This document shows positions 39,396 through 45,276 of a stretch of 64,000 bases of DNA, piece by piece. A program made the position numbers and the translations under genes. The stretch covers positions 124,001-188,000 of the forward strand of contig JAVEYW010000009.1 in assembly GCA_034003325.1 (NCBI GenBank), read 5' to 3'. Positions within the stretch are counted from its first letter, which is position 1; every line of letters begins with the position of its first letter. The notes beneath the pieces are model-generated. The model did no database searches and was not told where the DNA came from. It saw only the letters and a list, made by a program, of their open reading frames with translations. This stretch comes from Desulfobacterales bacterium (lineage in GTDB: Bacteria; Desulfobacterota; Desulfobacteria; Desulfobacterales; JAFDDL01).

Positions 39396-41090
39396 TTAAG
39401 AGGGGGATGCCGGTGTTTCCAGGCCCGCAAATAATTCGTAGCCGTGAATAAGCCCCGGCTTGATTTGAACTTTTGTGCGGATATTTCGACCCGTGGTATA
39501 AAATCCACGGACCATGTTGAACTGAATGTTTTCGACCACTTCCATTTCAAGGTGATCCGGGTCGGCGCCCATTTGCAGCCCCTTGTGCCTGAGCAGCTCA
39601 AAGGCTTCCCGAACGGCATCTTGGTTGCTGAATTCTTTTCCTATTTTTTTCAGATAGTTTTCTTCCGGTGCCGTGCAGATTCCCTGCTCGGTATCGGCAA
39701 AAAAGGTCAGCTCACAGGTGGTTCTAGCCAGCGCAGCACCGATGGCATTGGCTACCTTGCTGTTAGGTAAGGCCCGGACTGTTAGCGCGCTTATTTCCTC
39801 AAGCTTTTTGGACAAAATGGCCGCAGGTCCGCCAAGCACTAATATTTCAGTTGGGTTAACCTTGTAATTTTCGAGGAGTTCGTGAACCGTATAAACCGGT
39901 TTGGAATTAATGCGAACGATCATCTGCGTCGCCGCATCCAATATATCCTGGCAGGTTTTCTCATGGATCAGGGCCGCTGCATTTTCGACCGTTGTTCCCA
40001 AGGCTTCGGCAACCGGCGTAAGGCCGTCAATGGATTTTTGGCGATTTCCATCAGAGATGAGTCCCAAGACGAAAAGCGCATCCGTGGGGGTGGGCGACAA
40101 ACCGCCAAAGGCCATGGCAGGGCCCTTGCGGTCCGGCCCGATCTCCAGGCGACCATCTATCACGCGGACAAAGCTGTCTCCGCCGACACCGATCGAGTGA
40201 GTGTTCATGGCATGGATCAGTGTTTTATACCCGCCCAATTCAGCGCCCAACGGGTCCAGCAGGGGAACGCCGTCAACCAAAACCGCCATATCGGTTGTAG
40301 TGCCGCCGATATCGAGTACCAGACTTCCCACATTTTTGGATGCGTACGGTAGGGCGCCCATCACGCTGGCCGCCGGTCCGGAAAGGATCGTGTGGCCCGG
40401 ATAATCGATGGAAGAATCAAATCTCATGGTACCGCCGTCAGGCTTCAGAATCTTGATCGATCTAAGGATCCCTTTTTCCACCAGGGATTTTTGGACGGCC
40501 TCGAAAAATGTTTTATGAATCGGGTAAACGGCGGCATTGAGATAAACCGTAGCGATTCTTCTGGGGAAATTCAGATTGCCGGACATTTGATGCCCTAAAA
40601 AAACTTTTTCAAATTGCCCCTCCAGGAGGGAGGCTATTTTAAGTTCGTGAGAAGGATTGCGCGTGGAGAATTTTCCGACCACTCCGACATAATGCACACC
40701 AGCGGTTACGAGTTTTCGGGAGATCGCGATAATTTCATCCGTGTTGACCGGTTGAATTTCGCGCCCACGATGGTCAATCGCCCCGGTTACCGAATGATAA
40801 TGATCGGAAACTTGAAGCAAAGCAGCATCAATCCCCGGTCCGGCTGTGACGATTATTCCGACAGGCGGTGTTTCTTTCTGGACGATTGCATTGGTGGTTA
40901 GCGTGGTGCTGAAAACCACCCGCCCGATAGTGTTCGGATCAATCCCGTCGGTAACTTGATGCAAGCCGGTCAATACCGTCTCAAACAGGTCGGATTGATT
41001 GGTGGGAATCTTAAATTCACGAATCAGTCCGTTCTTTCCCAAAAGCACGACATCCGTATGCGTACCGCCGACATCCAGGCCGATTATCAT
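39396..41090 (-). CDS. hydantoinase/oxoprolinase-family protein (HyuA-like)
   Basis: The 564-residue protein is an ASKHA-type ATPase of the hydantoinase A / oxoprolinase class: IIGLDVGGTHTDVVL at the N-terminus (phosphate loop), STTLTTNAI, LSGPAASVMGAL, LDIGGTTTDMAV and a SIGVGGDSFVRV motif. Family members hydrolyse cyclic amides with ATP or carboxylate ketones (acetone, acetophenone carboxylase subunits). It lacks the HyuB partner, so the reaction cannot be told from sequence. A good aggga site precedes the start. It shares an operon direction with the histone-deacetylase-like gene. Confidence 0.85.
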   Translation of the reverse strand: MIIGLDVGGTHTDVVLLGKNGLIREFKIPTNQSDLFETVLTGLHQVTDGIDPNTIGRVVFSTTLTTNAIVQKETPPVGIIVTAGPGIDAALLQVSDHYHSVTGAIDHRGREIQPVNTDEIIAISRKLVTAGVHYVGVVGKFSTRNPSHELKIASLLEGQFEKVFLGHQMSGNLNFPRRIATVYLNAAVYPIHKTFFEAVQKSLVEKGILRSIKILKPDGGTMRFDSSIDYPGHTILSGPAASVMGALPYASKNVGSLVLDIGGTTTDMAVLVDGVPLLDPLGAELGGYKTLIHAMNTHSIGVGGDSFVRVIDGRLEIGPDRKGPAMAFGGLSPTPTDALFVLGLISDGNRQKSIDGLTPVAEALGTTVENAAALIHEKTCQDILDAATQMIVRINSKPVYTVHELLENYKVNPTEILVLGGPAAILSKKLEEISALTVRALPNSKVANAIGAALARTTCELTFFADTEQGICTAPEENYLKKIGKEFSNQDAVREAFELLRHKGLQMGADPDHLEMEVVENIQFNMVRGFYTTGRNIRTKVQIKPGLIHGYELFAGLETPASPS

Positions 41091-41461: not shown

Positions 41462-41819
41462 GTGCCGAGATGTTCTTTTTCATTGCATGGTTGTTTCCCT
41501 CCATTGCCTGCCTCCTTTTCGGATAGAGCCGAAGCATTGCCACATCGTGCCCGCTGAATTCTTACAAAATATGACATGGGGTTTAAGCCGAGTCAATTTA
41601 TATCGTCAACCCCTGTATTAATTCATTTTATACGTCATAATCAAGGCGGATGCCCGCAATTCTTTCATTGTGATGCGTCGAGTTTTATGGTTTACATTAT
41701 AAAAAAGGGCATAAAGACAGGCTCAAAGGCCCCGGATCGGGCGACGCGAAAGCGGGAACGCCGACGCGCAAAAAGGGAGGATCTTTTGCCGAATAATTCC
41801 CGATTAAGGAGGTATAACC

Positions 41820-41978
41820 ATGTATAATCTGATTGTGATACTGATTGTCATTGGTGTATGGCTGCTGTTTCAATTGGTCATTTTGCCTAAAATGGGCATT
41901 TCATCCTGACTGAAAGGTGCTTGTCAGTTGCCAAGCAAAGAAAAACAGCCCGAAAAACCAACCCACAAGGAAAAATAA
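41820..41978 (+). CDS. small single-TM protein, possible selenoprotein (in-frame TGA)
   Basis: After an ideal site (aaggaggtataacc) an ATG opens 29 codons: one transmembrane helix (NLIVILIVIGVWLLFQLVI) and LPKMGISS. The next codon is TGA (41907-41909), then 22 more in-frame sense codons with a charged Lys/Glu-rich tail (LKGACQLPSKEKQPEK...) and a TAA. The tail is what one expects for a cytoplasmic end of a small membrane protein, so the TGA may encode selenocysteine, giving a U-x4-C pair. A hairpin follows the TGA. If TGA is a real stop, the product is 29 residues (41820-41909). Confidence 0.5.
41918..41937 (+). promoter_or_regulatory. candidate SECIS-type hairpin after the in-frame TGA
   Basis: A 6-bp stem (tgcttg / caagca) with an 8-base loop tcagttgc, containing the GT that bacterial SECIS loops often carry, lies 8 bases after the TGA. 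The apical loop starts 14 bases after the TGA, at or slightly below the usual range, and the stem is short. Weak support only. Confidence 0.3.
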
Positions 41979-42042: not shown

Positions 42043-42993
42043 TTACGCATGATTTCTAAGGTTTAGCTCAATAGGGTGGGGGGATAAAAAAAATTGCGAC
42101 TTCAAATAGGGTTGATTGTATTTTTGCACATAATGATTGATTAAGGTCACCGGCACAATGAGCGGGACATGGCGTTTTTGGTAAAGACTGATGATATCGA
42201 GAAGCTCTTGTTTTTCATCCCCGGTGAGTTGCTTTTTAAAATATCCTAGGACGTGTTGAAGGACATTGGTGTTTTTGGCGGGCGTGGCTTTTAATTGCAG
42301 GGCCGCCATCAACAGGGATTGATAGGTATCATAAAGTGTTTCGGCAGGTATGACCTTGATTTTGGCGATGAGTTTTCCCATTTCCTTGTAATGCGCGGGG
42401 CTGTGGGCGAGTATCATTAGCTTGTGATGGGTATGAAAGGCGACCAGCTCGCCTCTTTTTTTCTGCCCGGATAAAAGTTCCCGCCATCGCTTGAACACGA
42501 ACACCCTTTCAATAAAATTTTCTCGAAGCGCGGGATCATGAAGGCGCCCTTCTTCTTCCGCCGGCAAAAACGGAAAATGCGCCATAAAAATTCGAGCAAA
42601 CACGCCCACGCCCTTTTTGACTGGCATGCCGCTTTTTCCATATACCTTGACCCGCTCCATGCCGCTGCTGGGAGAATCGCTTTTAAAAATAAATCCGCAC
42701 AGGTTTTCTGATTCAAGCGCTTGCGCGCGTTGCCTCGCCCATGTGACCATTTGCGCCGTATGGTCGATACCGCTTTGGGTGGTTACCAGCCGCGGCGCTT
42801 CGATGTCGCCGACGAGCCGCATGGTTTCCCGAGGCACACCGAGCCCGCATTCGACTTCCGGGCAGACGGGAACATAGGTTACATATTGCCCCAAGGTATC
42901 GGTGAGAAACCGGTCTTTCTTGTGGCCGCCGTCATATCGAACCTTTTCGCCCAGAAGGCAAGCGCTGATGCCTATTCGAATTGCCTGATCCAT
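42043..42993 (-). CDS. DUF523 / DUF1722 (YbgA) fusion protein
   Basis: The 316-residue protein has an N-terminal DUF523 domain (IGISACLLGEKVRYDGGHK, VPVCPEVECGLGVPRE, SDSPSSGMERVKVY) and a C-terminal DUF1722 (YbgA-like) domain with FHTHHKLMILAHS and QHVLGYFKKQLT. In other bacteria the pair is often linked to photolyase genes; here the neighbour is a pyrimidine-dimer-glycosylase-like gene, also fitting a UV or DNA-damage setting. The reaction is unknown. It is the last of three closely spaced minus-strand genes. Confidence 0.88.
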   Translation of the reverse strand: MDQAIRIGISACLLGEKVRYDGGHKKDRFLTDTLGQYVTYVPVCPEVECGLGVPRETMRLVGDIEAPRLVTTQSGIDHTAQMVTWARQRAQALESENLCGFIFKSDSPSSGMERVKVYGKSGMPVKKGVGVFARIFMAHFPFLPAEEEGRLHDPALRENFIERVFVFKRWRELLSGQKKRGELVAFHTHHKLMILAHSPAHYKEMGKLIAKIKVIPAETLYDTYQSLLMAALQLKATPAKNTNVLQHVLGYFKKQLTGDEKQELLDIISLYQKRHVPLIVPVTLINHYVQKYNQPYLKSQFFLSPHPIELNLRNHA

Positions 42994-43500: not shown

Positions 43501-45276
43501 TTAAAACGGCCACAGGCGCGGAATAAAAAGGGCGCCGGCGATCAATACCATCAGATTCAATGGCATGCCCAGTTTCAGGTAATCGCTGAACCGGTATCCG
43601 CCCGGGCCGTAAACCAGCAGGTTCGTCTGGTAACCGATGGGCGTGGCAAAGCACGCGCTGGCGCCGAAGCAAACTCCGACAATAAACGGTTTCGGATCCA
43701 CCCCCAGTGAAGTTGCCGCTGAGATGGCGATGGGCAAGATGAGAACGGCCGTGGCGTTGTTACTTAATATTTGCGTACTGATGCTGGTCATCAAGATGAT
43801 GCCGCCCAAAATGACAGGGGGGGAATAGCCCGAGAGTAGCCGTAAAAAAGCATGCGCATAGAGCTGGCTGGTACCGGTTTGCGCCATGGCCGTGCCTAGA
43901 GCGATGGTTCCGGCAATGAGCAACAACACTTCTCCCTGAAGCGCCCTGTACGCATCGCGCATCTGCAAGCAGCCCGTTAGAATCATCAAAAATGCCGCCA
44001 GAAGCGCGCACACCATAATATCGGCCAATCCGGAAGTGGCTGCCGTGATCATGCCGGCAAATATGATCGAAGATATCCATGTTTTTCGTTTATGAATAAT
44101 CTCCTCATACACATCTTCTATCATGATATAGTCTTTGCCCGCCCGAATGGCGCCAAGTTTATTGGCGAAGCACCATACCAGCATGATATCGCCGATCTTA
44201 AGGCGCACATCATGAAGTTGCCTTTCCGTGAAATGCAAATTGCTTCTCTTGATGGCGATGATGTTGATATCCGGGTTTCGCATCAACTCCGTTTCAATAA
44301 GCCGCTGGCCCAACATTTGGGATTGGGGCGAAATGATCAATTCCACGACAATCGGCTCGTCTTTGCCGGCATTAAAGGATAGACCTTCCTCGGACCGGGG
44401 TAGTGTCACATCTTCCTGATGCAGAATGGCAACCAGATCATTCAAGGAGCCTTTCACCAGAAGCAGATCGTCCGGCGCAATTTCGACGGTGTCTCGTGTG
44501 GGGTGGTATATATGCGAATACCTGATCAGTTCAAGAACTTCCAAATCTGGATAGTTTTTGGAAAATGCCTGTGCGGGCGCTTGGCCGATCAGGGCGCTTT
44601 TTCGTGGAATTTTAAGCTCTGCCAGGTACCGGCGATGGGTGTTGTCCTGAATTCGGCAGATCGGATTTGATAGCGAGGGCAATAAACGCGGCGCCCCAAA
44701 AGACAAGAAGATCAGGCCGAAAATCGCGATAGGAACGCCAAGACGAGAGAGTTCAAACATGCCCAGTGGGCCATAACCGTATTGGGCGCTTAAATCACTG
44801 ATAATGATATTGGTTGATGTGCCGATGAGCGTGCAGGTGCCGGCAAGAATGGACGCATAGGAAATGGGTATCAGGAATTTGGAAGGGCTCAGGCCGAATT
44901 CGCAGCACATGGTCATGACCACGGGAATAAAGAGAATCACCACCGGGGTGTTGTTGATAAAGGCGGAGGCAAGGGCGATTGTGAGCAAAATCACGACCAG
45001 GGCGAGGGTCGAATTGCCCTTGGCCAGCTTTATCACGCGTCGACCGATAAATTCAACGGCTCCGGTTCGCATCATTCCCTTGCTGATAATGAACATGGCG
45101 CCAACCGTGATCACCGCGGGATTGGCAATGCCCGCTACCGCCTCCTTGGGGGTAAGGATTTTAAAGAGAACCAGCAGGGACATGATGCCGAGGCCGGTCA
45201 GTCCGGCTGATATCTGTTCGGAAATGAGCAGATAAAGGGTCAGCAGCAATATCGCGGATACGACCCAGACGCTCAT
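43501..45276 (-). CDS. SLC13-family ion/sulfate permease with TrkA-C domains
   Basis: The 591-residue protein has about ten to twelve transmembrane helices in two halves separated by two RCK/TrkA-C domains (residues ~205-370). The half-signature motifs are present: FINNTPVVILF in the first half and LSNNATAVLILPI in the second, plus GTCTLIGTSTNII. This is the SLC13/DASS layout of bacterial divalent anion:Na+ symporters, some of which move sulfate or dicarboxylates. For a sulfate reducer sulfate uptake is a reasonable guess, not shown here. It is the first gene of a three-gene minus-strand operon. Confidence 0.85.
   Translation of the reverse strand: MSVWVVSAILLLTLYLLISEQISAGLTGLGIMSLLVLFKILTPKEAVAGIANPAVITVGAMFIISKGMMRTGAVEFIGRRVIKLAKGNSTLALVVILLTIALASAFINNTPVVILFIPVVMTMCCEFGLSPSKFLIPISYASILAGTCTLIGTSTNIIISDLSAQYGYGPLGMFELSRLGVPIAIFGLIFLSFGAPRLLPSLSNPICRIQDNTHRRYLAELKIPRKSALIGQAPAQAFSKNYPDLEVLELIRYSHIYHPTRDTVEIAPDDLLLVKGSLNDLVAILHQEDVTLPRSEEGLSFNAGKDEPIVVELIISPQSQMLGQRLIETELMRNPDINIIAIKRSNLHFTERQLHDVRLKIGDIMLVWCFANKLGAIRAGKDYIMIEDVYEEIIHKRKTWISSIIFAGMITAATSGLADIMVCALLAAFLMILTGCLQMRDAYRALQGEVLLLIAGTIALGTAMAQTGTSQLYAHAFLRLLSGYSPPVILGGIILMTSISTQILSNNATAVLILPIAISAATSLGVDPKPFIVGVCFGASACFATPIGYQTNLLVYGPGGYRFSDYLKLGMPLNLMVLIAGALFIPRLWPF

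Follow-up and report, generated by a model that had tools for sequence, protein, structure and literature searches.

The DNA analyzed here (the window; 64,000 nucleotides) carries a lone small gene on its forward strand, for which we predict a membrane selenoprotein product. The features of the gene are as follows.

41806 to 41812, + strand: Shine-Dalgarno sequence AAGGAGG, 7 nt 5' of the ATG (read from the sequence)
41820 to 41978, + strand: small selenoprotein gene with its ATG at 41820, 52 residues if UGA is Sec (homology searches)
41823 to 41891, + strand: predicted single transmembrane helix, residues 2 to 24, with the conserved ILPK motif at its end (AlphaFold2)
41907 to 41909, + strand: in-frame TGA, the predicted selenocysteine, residue 30 (TGA in 138 of 138 unique homologs)
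41918 to 41937, + strand: bSECIS-like hairpin (covariation and slid or shuffled controls in 63 sequences of the order; its own fold is weak)
41922 to 41924, + strand: conserved partner Cys35 of a U-x4-C motif (Cys in 138 of 138)
41976 to 41978, + strand: true stop codon TAA (read from the sequence)

With UGA read as Sec, the product would be MYNLIVILIVIGVWLLFQLVILPKMGISS-U-LKGACQLPSKEKQPEKPTHKEK, i.e., 29 codons ending in LPKMGISS, the TGA, and 22 further codons with a single Cys at codon 35. An earlier note made from this DNA had described the ribosome site, the 29-codon stretch, the TGA, the 22-codon tail, U-x4-C, and the TAA, as well as a 6-bp hairpin with a GT-containing loop 3' of the TGA; all of these were confirmed. 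The hairpin (UGCUUG/CAAGCA, loop UCAGUUGC) has a U-C mismatch under an AGUU tip and a folding energy of -6.4 kcal/mol, and it is no more stable than shuffled sequences (z = 0.21). Its position is homologous to that of the hairpin in relatives, and it misses the strict bSECIS geometry. Taken alone, the window copy is weak evidence, and its significance comes from comparison.

The gene is flanked by a hydantoinase-type gene (39396 to 41090, - strand) and by a DUF523/DUF1722 gene (42043 to 42993, - strand). The DUF523 (2-thiouracil desulfurase) part of the latter has the Cys motif SACLLG; DUF523 is elsewhere counted among the selenoprotein families (SxSUG). No further convincing readthrough candidates were found within the window.

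In a whole-genome search of the source organism's order (390 genomes) with the TGA-readthrough protein, 323 genomes gave matches at an E value of ≤1, and about 300 of these (all but ~20) also did so at ≤0.01. When a profile built from 21 members was run on a sample of 395 genomes from across the phylum, 164 were matched at an E value of ≤0.01. The internal TGA was present in every match listed in both searches. The earlier note had advised a search for homologs, and relatives with the TGA at the same position were found in hundreds of genomes; these TGA-bearing relatives across the phylum support its selenoprotein reading. It had also held that homologs all ending at the TGA would refute that reading; instead, the homologs run in frame through the TGA and conserve U-x4/5-C. 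It had missed the spread of the family across the whole phylum and its apparent restriction to the Sec form. Searches of plasmid and phage collections and of PDB sequences yielded no match to the family.

For codon, motif, and hairpin counts, 138 unique copies of 44 to 68 residues were extracted. They share the motif W/Y-x3-Q/N-x3-L-P-(K/R)-x-G-(I/V)-x-T-U-x3/4-(A/S)-C, in which Pro-7, Gly-4, and U are invariant and Thr-1 is found in 133 copies; the window copy has the rarer Ser at U-1. Every copy has a partner Cys, located at U+5 in 131 copies and at U+6 in 7, and it is the single Cys besides Sec in 133. An RBS-like motif precedes the start codon in 133 of the 138 relatives.

Two variant arrangements were observed within the family. 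A double-Sec variant with two in-frame TGAs (LPSUGAP...PTUDGPSCSIGGQSKK) was present at loci L196, L197, L199, and L201 (genomes G678, G581, G640, and G659, all of genus g289), and it apparently originated by an insertion between the helix motif and the Cys. At locus L206 (G426:C1, ~158969 to 159247), two neighboring small one-helix genes are tandem divergent relatives, in each of which a TGA follows a motif of the LPKFG or MPGMG type (GGGUGPKKQC and MRGUMPRPP).

The consensus bSECIS has a loop of 3 to 9 nt with a G in the first two positions, a stem of at least 4 bp, and a location 16 to 37 nt after the UGA (PMC13188914). This geometry was present in 123 of the 138 copies, compared with a mean of 44 (maximum, 54) in synonymous shuffles, and the same geometry with an MFE of ≤-7.5 was present in 103 copies, compared with 32 in shuffles. 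Across 63 sequences of the order, the hairpin takes the form GCCUGUC-AGGU-GACAGGC, with 7 to 8 bp and an AGGU loop in most. Pairing was intact in 387 of 441 cells, versus 369 ± 3 (maximum, 380) when partners were reshuffled and 28 to 63% when they were slid. Compensatory swaps were recorded at pair 15-28 (C-G in 36 sequences and U-A in 18) and at pair 18-25 (U-A in 52 and C-G in 6). In other lineages, the hairpin lies ~7 nt further downstream and has a GGA loop, and each lineage thus keeps its own SECIS.

The earlier note had proposed a check for selA, selB, and selC, which held for two of the three components. The source genome encodes SelA (616 bits) and a tRNA-Sec with anticodon TCA (UCA in RNA; 74 bits), but searches with TIGR00475 and PF09107 detected no SelB in the assembly, which is 97.6% complete. 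The matches to these models translated from the source genome were of the EF-Tu, IF-2, LepA, TypA, PrfC, and EF-G types, and none was SelB. Among the source genome and 23 relatives, full SelB was present in 20 of 24 genomes and not detected in the source and 3 of the 23 others. Genomes G000 (the source) and G005 are both ~98% complete and without SelB, and several relatives (G010, G013, G016, G017, and G023) carry two SelB genes of unequal score. The simple reading of the missing SelB is an assembly gap; loss or divergence in the source organism is the other reading. The tRNA-Sec gene of the source genome (L039; G000:C13, ~45041 to 45134) adjoins short repeat-rich and phage-like open reading frames, which suggests an integrated element beside it.

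Across the phylum, SelA was detected in 158 of 164 family-positive genomes versus 203 of 231 family-negative genomes (Fisher P = 0.003); within the order, it is near-universal (360 of 390) and therefore uninformative as a contrast. The six family-positive genomes in which SelA was not matched are probably cases of assembly gaps. Three incomplete genomes of one genus (G105, G137, and G160; genus g64) gave no SelA match and kept a TGA-bearing family member, reflecting either gaps or an unusual route of Sec synthesis.

The departure of the window hairpin from the strict model and the Ser at U-1 imply that decoding in the source organism could be weak or decaying. A real selenoprotein family that is decaying in this organism, with SelB lost or diverged, the SECIS eroded, and mostly truncated peptide produced, would accommodate the mismatch in the hairpin, the replacement of Thr before Sec, and the lack of a SelB-like match in a nearly complete assembly. 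We regard such decay as unlikely, given that SelA and tRNA-Sec are intact, that the reading frame and U-x4-C are preserved, and that the absence of SelB, which extends to 3 of the 23 other genomes, can be an assembly gap.

The Sec-position codon was TGA in 138 of 138 unique copies, while the true stops of the same genes were TAA in 55, TGA in 48, and TAG in 35. General reassignment of TGA in the genetic code is excluded by its use as the true stop in those 48 genes. Downstream of the TGA, residues are conserved (Cys at U+5/6, A/S at +4, and V/L/I at +7) while their codons vary, with the partner Cys encoded by TGT in 80 copies and TGC in 58. In related pairs, the third-position share of differences was 0.61 upstream of the TGA, 0.41 to 0.42 downstream of it, and 0.33 beyond the true stop, indicating that the part after the TGA is coding and under some additional constraint at the nucleotide level. 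An in-frame UGA flanked on either side by conserved protein sequence was found across many species (all 138 homologs). It is very improbable that the TGA is a true stop ending a 29-residue one-helix microprotein, with the conserved segment downstream acting as a hairpin with a regulatory role or as a feature of its own: a 29-codon helix is plausible as a complete microprotein, the SECIS of the window copy is weak, and SelB was not found in the source assembly, but this explanation needs a stop that is always TGA and never TAA or TAG in genes whose own stops are mixed, conserved residues past the stop with variable codons, and a hairpin that changes in sequence and position across lineages while U and C stay.

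The selenoprotein assignment is based on sequence conservation, UGA invariance, hairpin covariation, and the presence of SelA and tRNA-Sec. From these comparisons, we estimate a probability of roughly 93% that the family is a selenoprotein family, and Sec would almost certainly be inserted at the UGA.

We compared the family with catalogued proteins. Scans of Pfam and NCBIfam gave no match with the single sequence and no meaningful match with 52 diverse members (best E value, ~0.002, to unrelated models); the NCBIfam library scanned includes the models cited for Haft and Tolstoy 2025. There was no obvious match among the 119 prokaryotic selenoprotein families of a 2026 inventory (PMC13188914), as compared by the descriptions in its Table 1 and not by representative sequences. 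The inventory selenoproteins resemble the present family in their UGA-encoded Sec, a bSECIS just downstream, a nearby Cys, and their abundance in sulfate-reducer-type genomes; none is listed with an LPxxGxxTU/U-x4-C motif or such an architecture, going by the table descriptions. A literature search, which did not include Haft and Tolstoy 2025, found no description of the family. These results support the view that the family was previously uncatalogued, set apart from the 119 inventory families by their table descriptions, and they bear out the word "undescribed" in the earlier note. One member weakly matched TIGR04391 (CcmD-like; E value, 1.2, not significant). CcmD-like proteins are also one-helix membrane microproteins of similar size, but they have no Sec and no motif in common with the family.

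AlphaFold2 with a 52-member alignment predicted a helix at residues 2 to 24, with a pLDDT of ~90 over the first 20 residues and the rest unstructured. The first four residues carry a mean net charge of -0.3, and the region around the Sec motif carries one of +1.8; by the positive-inside rule, this bias places the Sec on the cytoplasmic side, and the topology is probably N-out/C-in with a cytoplasm-facing Sec. The eukaryotic proteins SelK and SelS are likewise small, with one N-terminal transmembrane helix and a Sec on a flexible cytosolic tail at the extreme C terminus. The resemblance is in how they may work: none of the 52 members matched the SelK or SelS families in Pfam, and the new family differs in having its Sec 5 to 6 residues past the helix, together with a resolving Cys, and not at the extreme C terminus.

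We propose that SelB and Sec-tRNA would read the UGA under the direction of a SECIS hairpin overlapping the ACQ-V/L-T codons. The product of ~53 residues would consist of one transmembrane helix, the juxtamembrane motif LP(K/R)xG(I/V)xTU(M/L/V)xx(A/S)C, and a short charged tail. Sec and the Cys 5 to 6 residues on could form a selenenylsulfide, and the protein may serve as a membrane-tethered redox center at the cytoplasmic face, acting on oxidants, disulfides, or thiophilic metals in anaerobes. A redox function is a tentative suggestion from the motif, which we rate at somewhat below even odds.

No conserved gene neighborhood was found among the 40 loci examined, where the neighbors differ, and the function is therefore weakly constrained. 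The variation among neighbors favors a general role in redox chemistry, tethered to the membrane, rather than a step in any single pathway. In 9 of the 40 neighborhoods, which represent eight families, an ECF-type sigma factor gene lies directly downstream on the same strand (L052, L053, L059, L062, L074, L078, L081, L083, and L088), followed in six of the nine by the gene for a small conserved protein similar to zinc-finger anti-sigma factors. It is possible that the selenoprotein gene, the sigma factor, and the anti-sigma-like protein form a conserved regulatory unit. Such loci would suit a membrane redox sensor in which the Sec-Cys pair detects oxidants and passes the signal on to the downstream-encoded sigma/anti-sigma pair; as an account of the family, we consider this doubtful, since 31 of the 40 neighborhoods, that of the window among them, have no adjacent sigma factor and the other neighbors are of different kinds. 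A MobB-like gene occurs within ~3 kb in 9 of the 40 neighborhoods, and heavy-metal (CopA-type) ATPases, HD proteins, and response regulators are also found. A membrane selenol-thiol pair that binds soft metals such as Cu or Hg is improbable as well: U-x4-C is a possible soft-metal site, and HMA-domain P-type ATPase genes adjoin a few loci (upstream in L062 and L076 and downstream in L068), but this association is rare, the tail is not rich in His or Cys, and nearly all copies have a single Cys apart from Sec.

Profile searches for the family covered genomes of the phylum, and a peptide scan covered the consensus core. The Cys version of that core, LPK[LM]G[IV]STC, occurred in five stretches in 84,980 genomes, none of which was a relative. 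A broader profile (A2) detected no Cys form, only noise, in 28 SelA-less, family-free genomes, and in other weak or negative genomes, it detected the TGA form or noise and again no Cys form. The UGA was retained even in the most divergent members. The glycine reductase selenoprotein A (GrdA), a soluble enzyme unrelated to the new family, was long held to be the sole selenoprotein without Cys homologs (PMC1794560), until Cys homologs were reported, so that every known family now has Cys forms (PMC12013277). The authors of deep-Sep state that Cys homologs now seem to exist for all known selenoproteins and that their own method may miss selenoproteins without them (PMC12013277).

It is likely, judging from these searches, that this phylum-wide one-helix membrane selenoprotein, with its double-Sec and tandem variants and no Cys homolog, represents the first widespread Sec-only family and that methods built on Cys/Sec pairs miss a class. 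Current catalogues and predictors depend on Cys homologs, and Cys/Sec-pair methods could not find such a family; genome annotation probably splits the gene or skips it as a 29-codon open reading frame. Its occurrence in ~40% of the sampled genomes of the phylum and ~80% of those of the order suggests that small Sec-only proteins form a class so far unseen and raises the question of which membrane chemistry is beyond Cys. In these lineages, the gene would rank with the more common selenoprotein genes and could partly explain why the Sec trait is retained.
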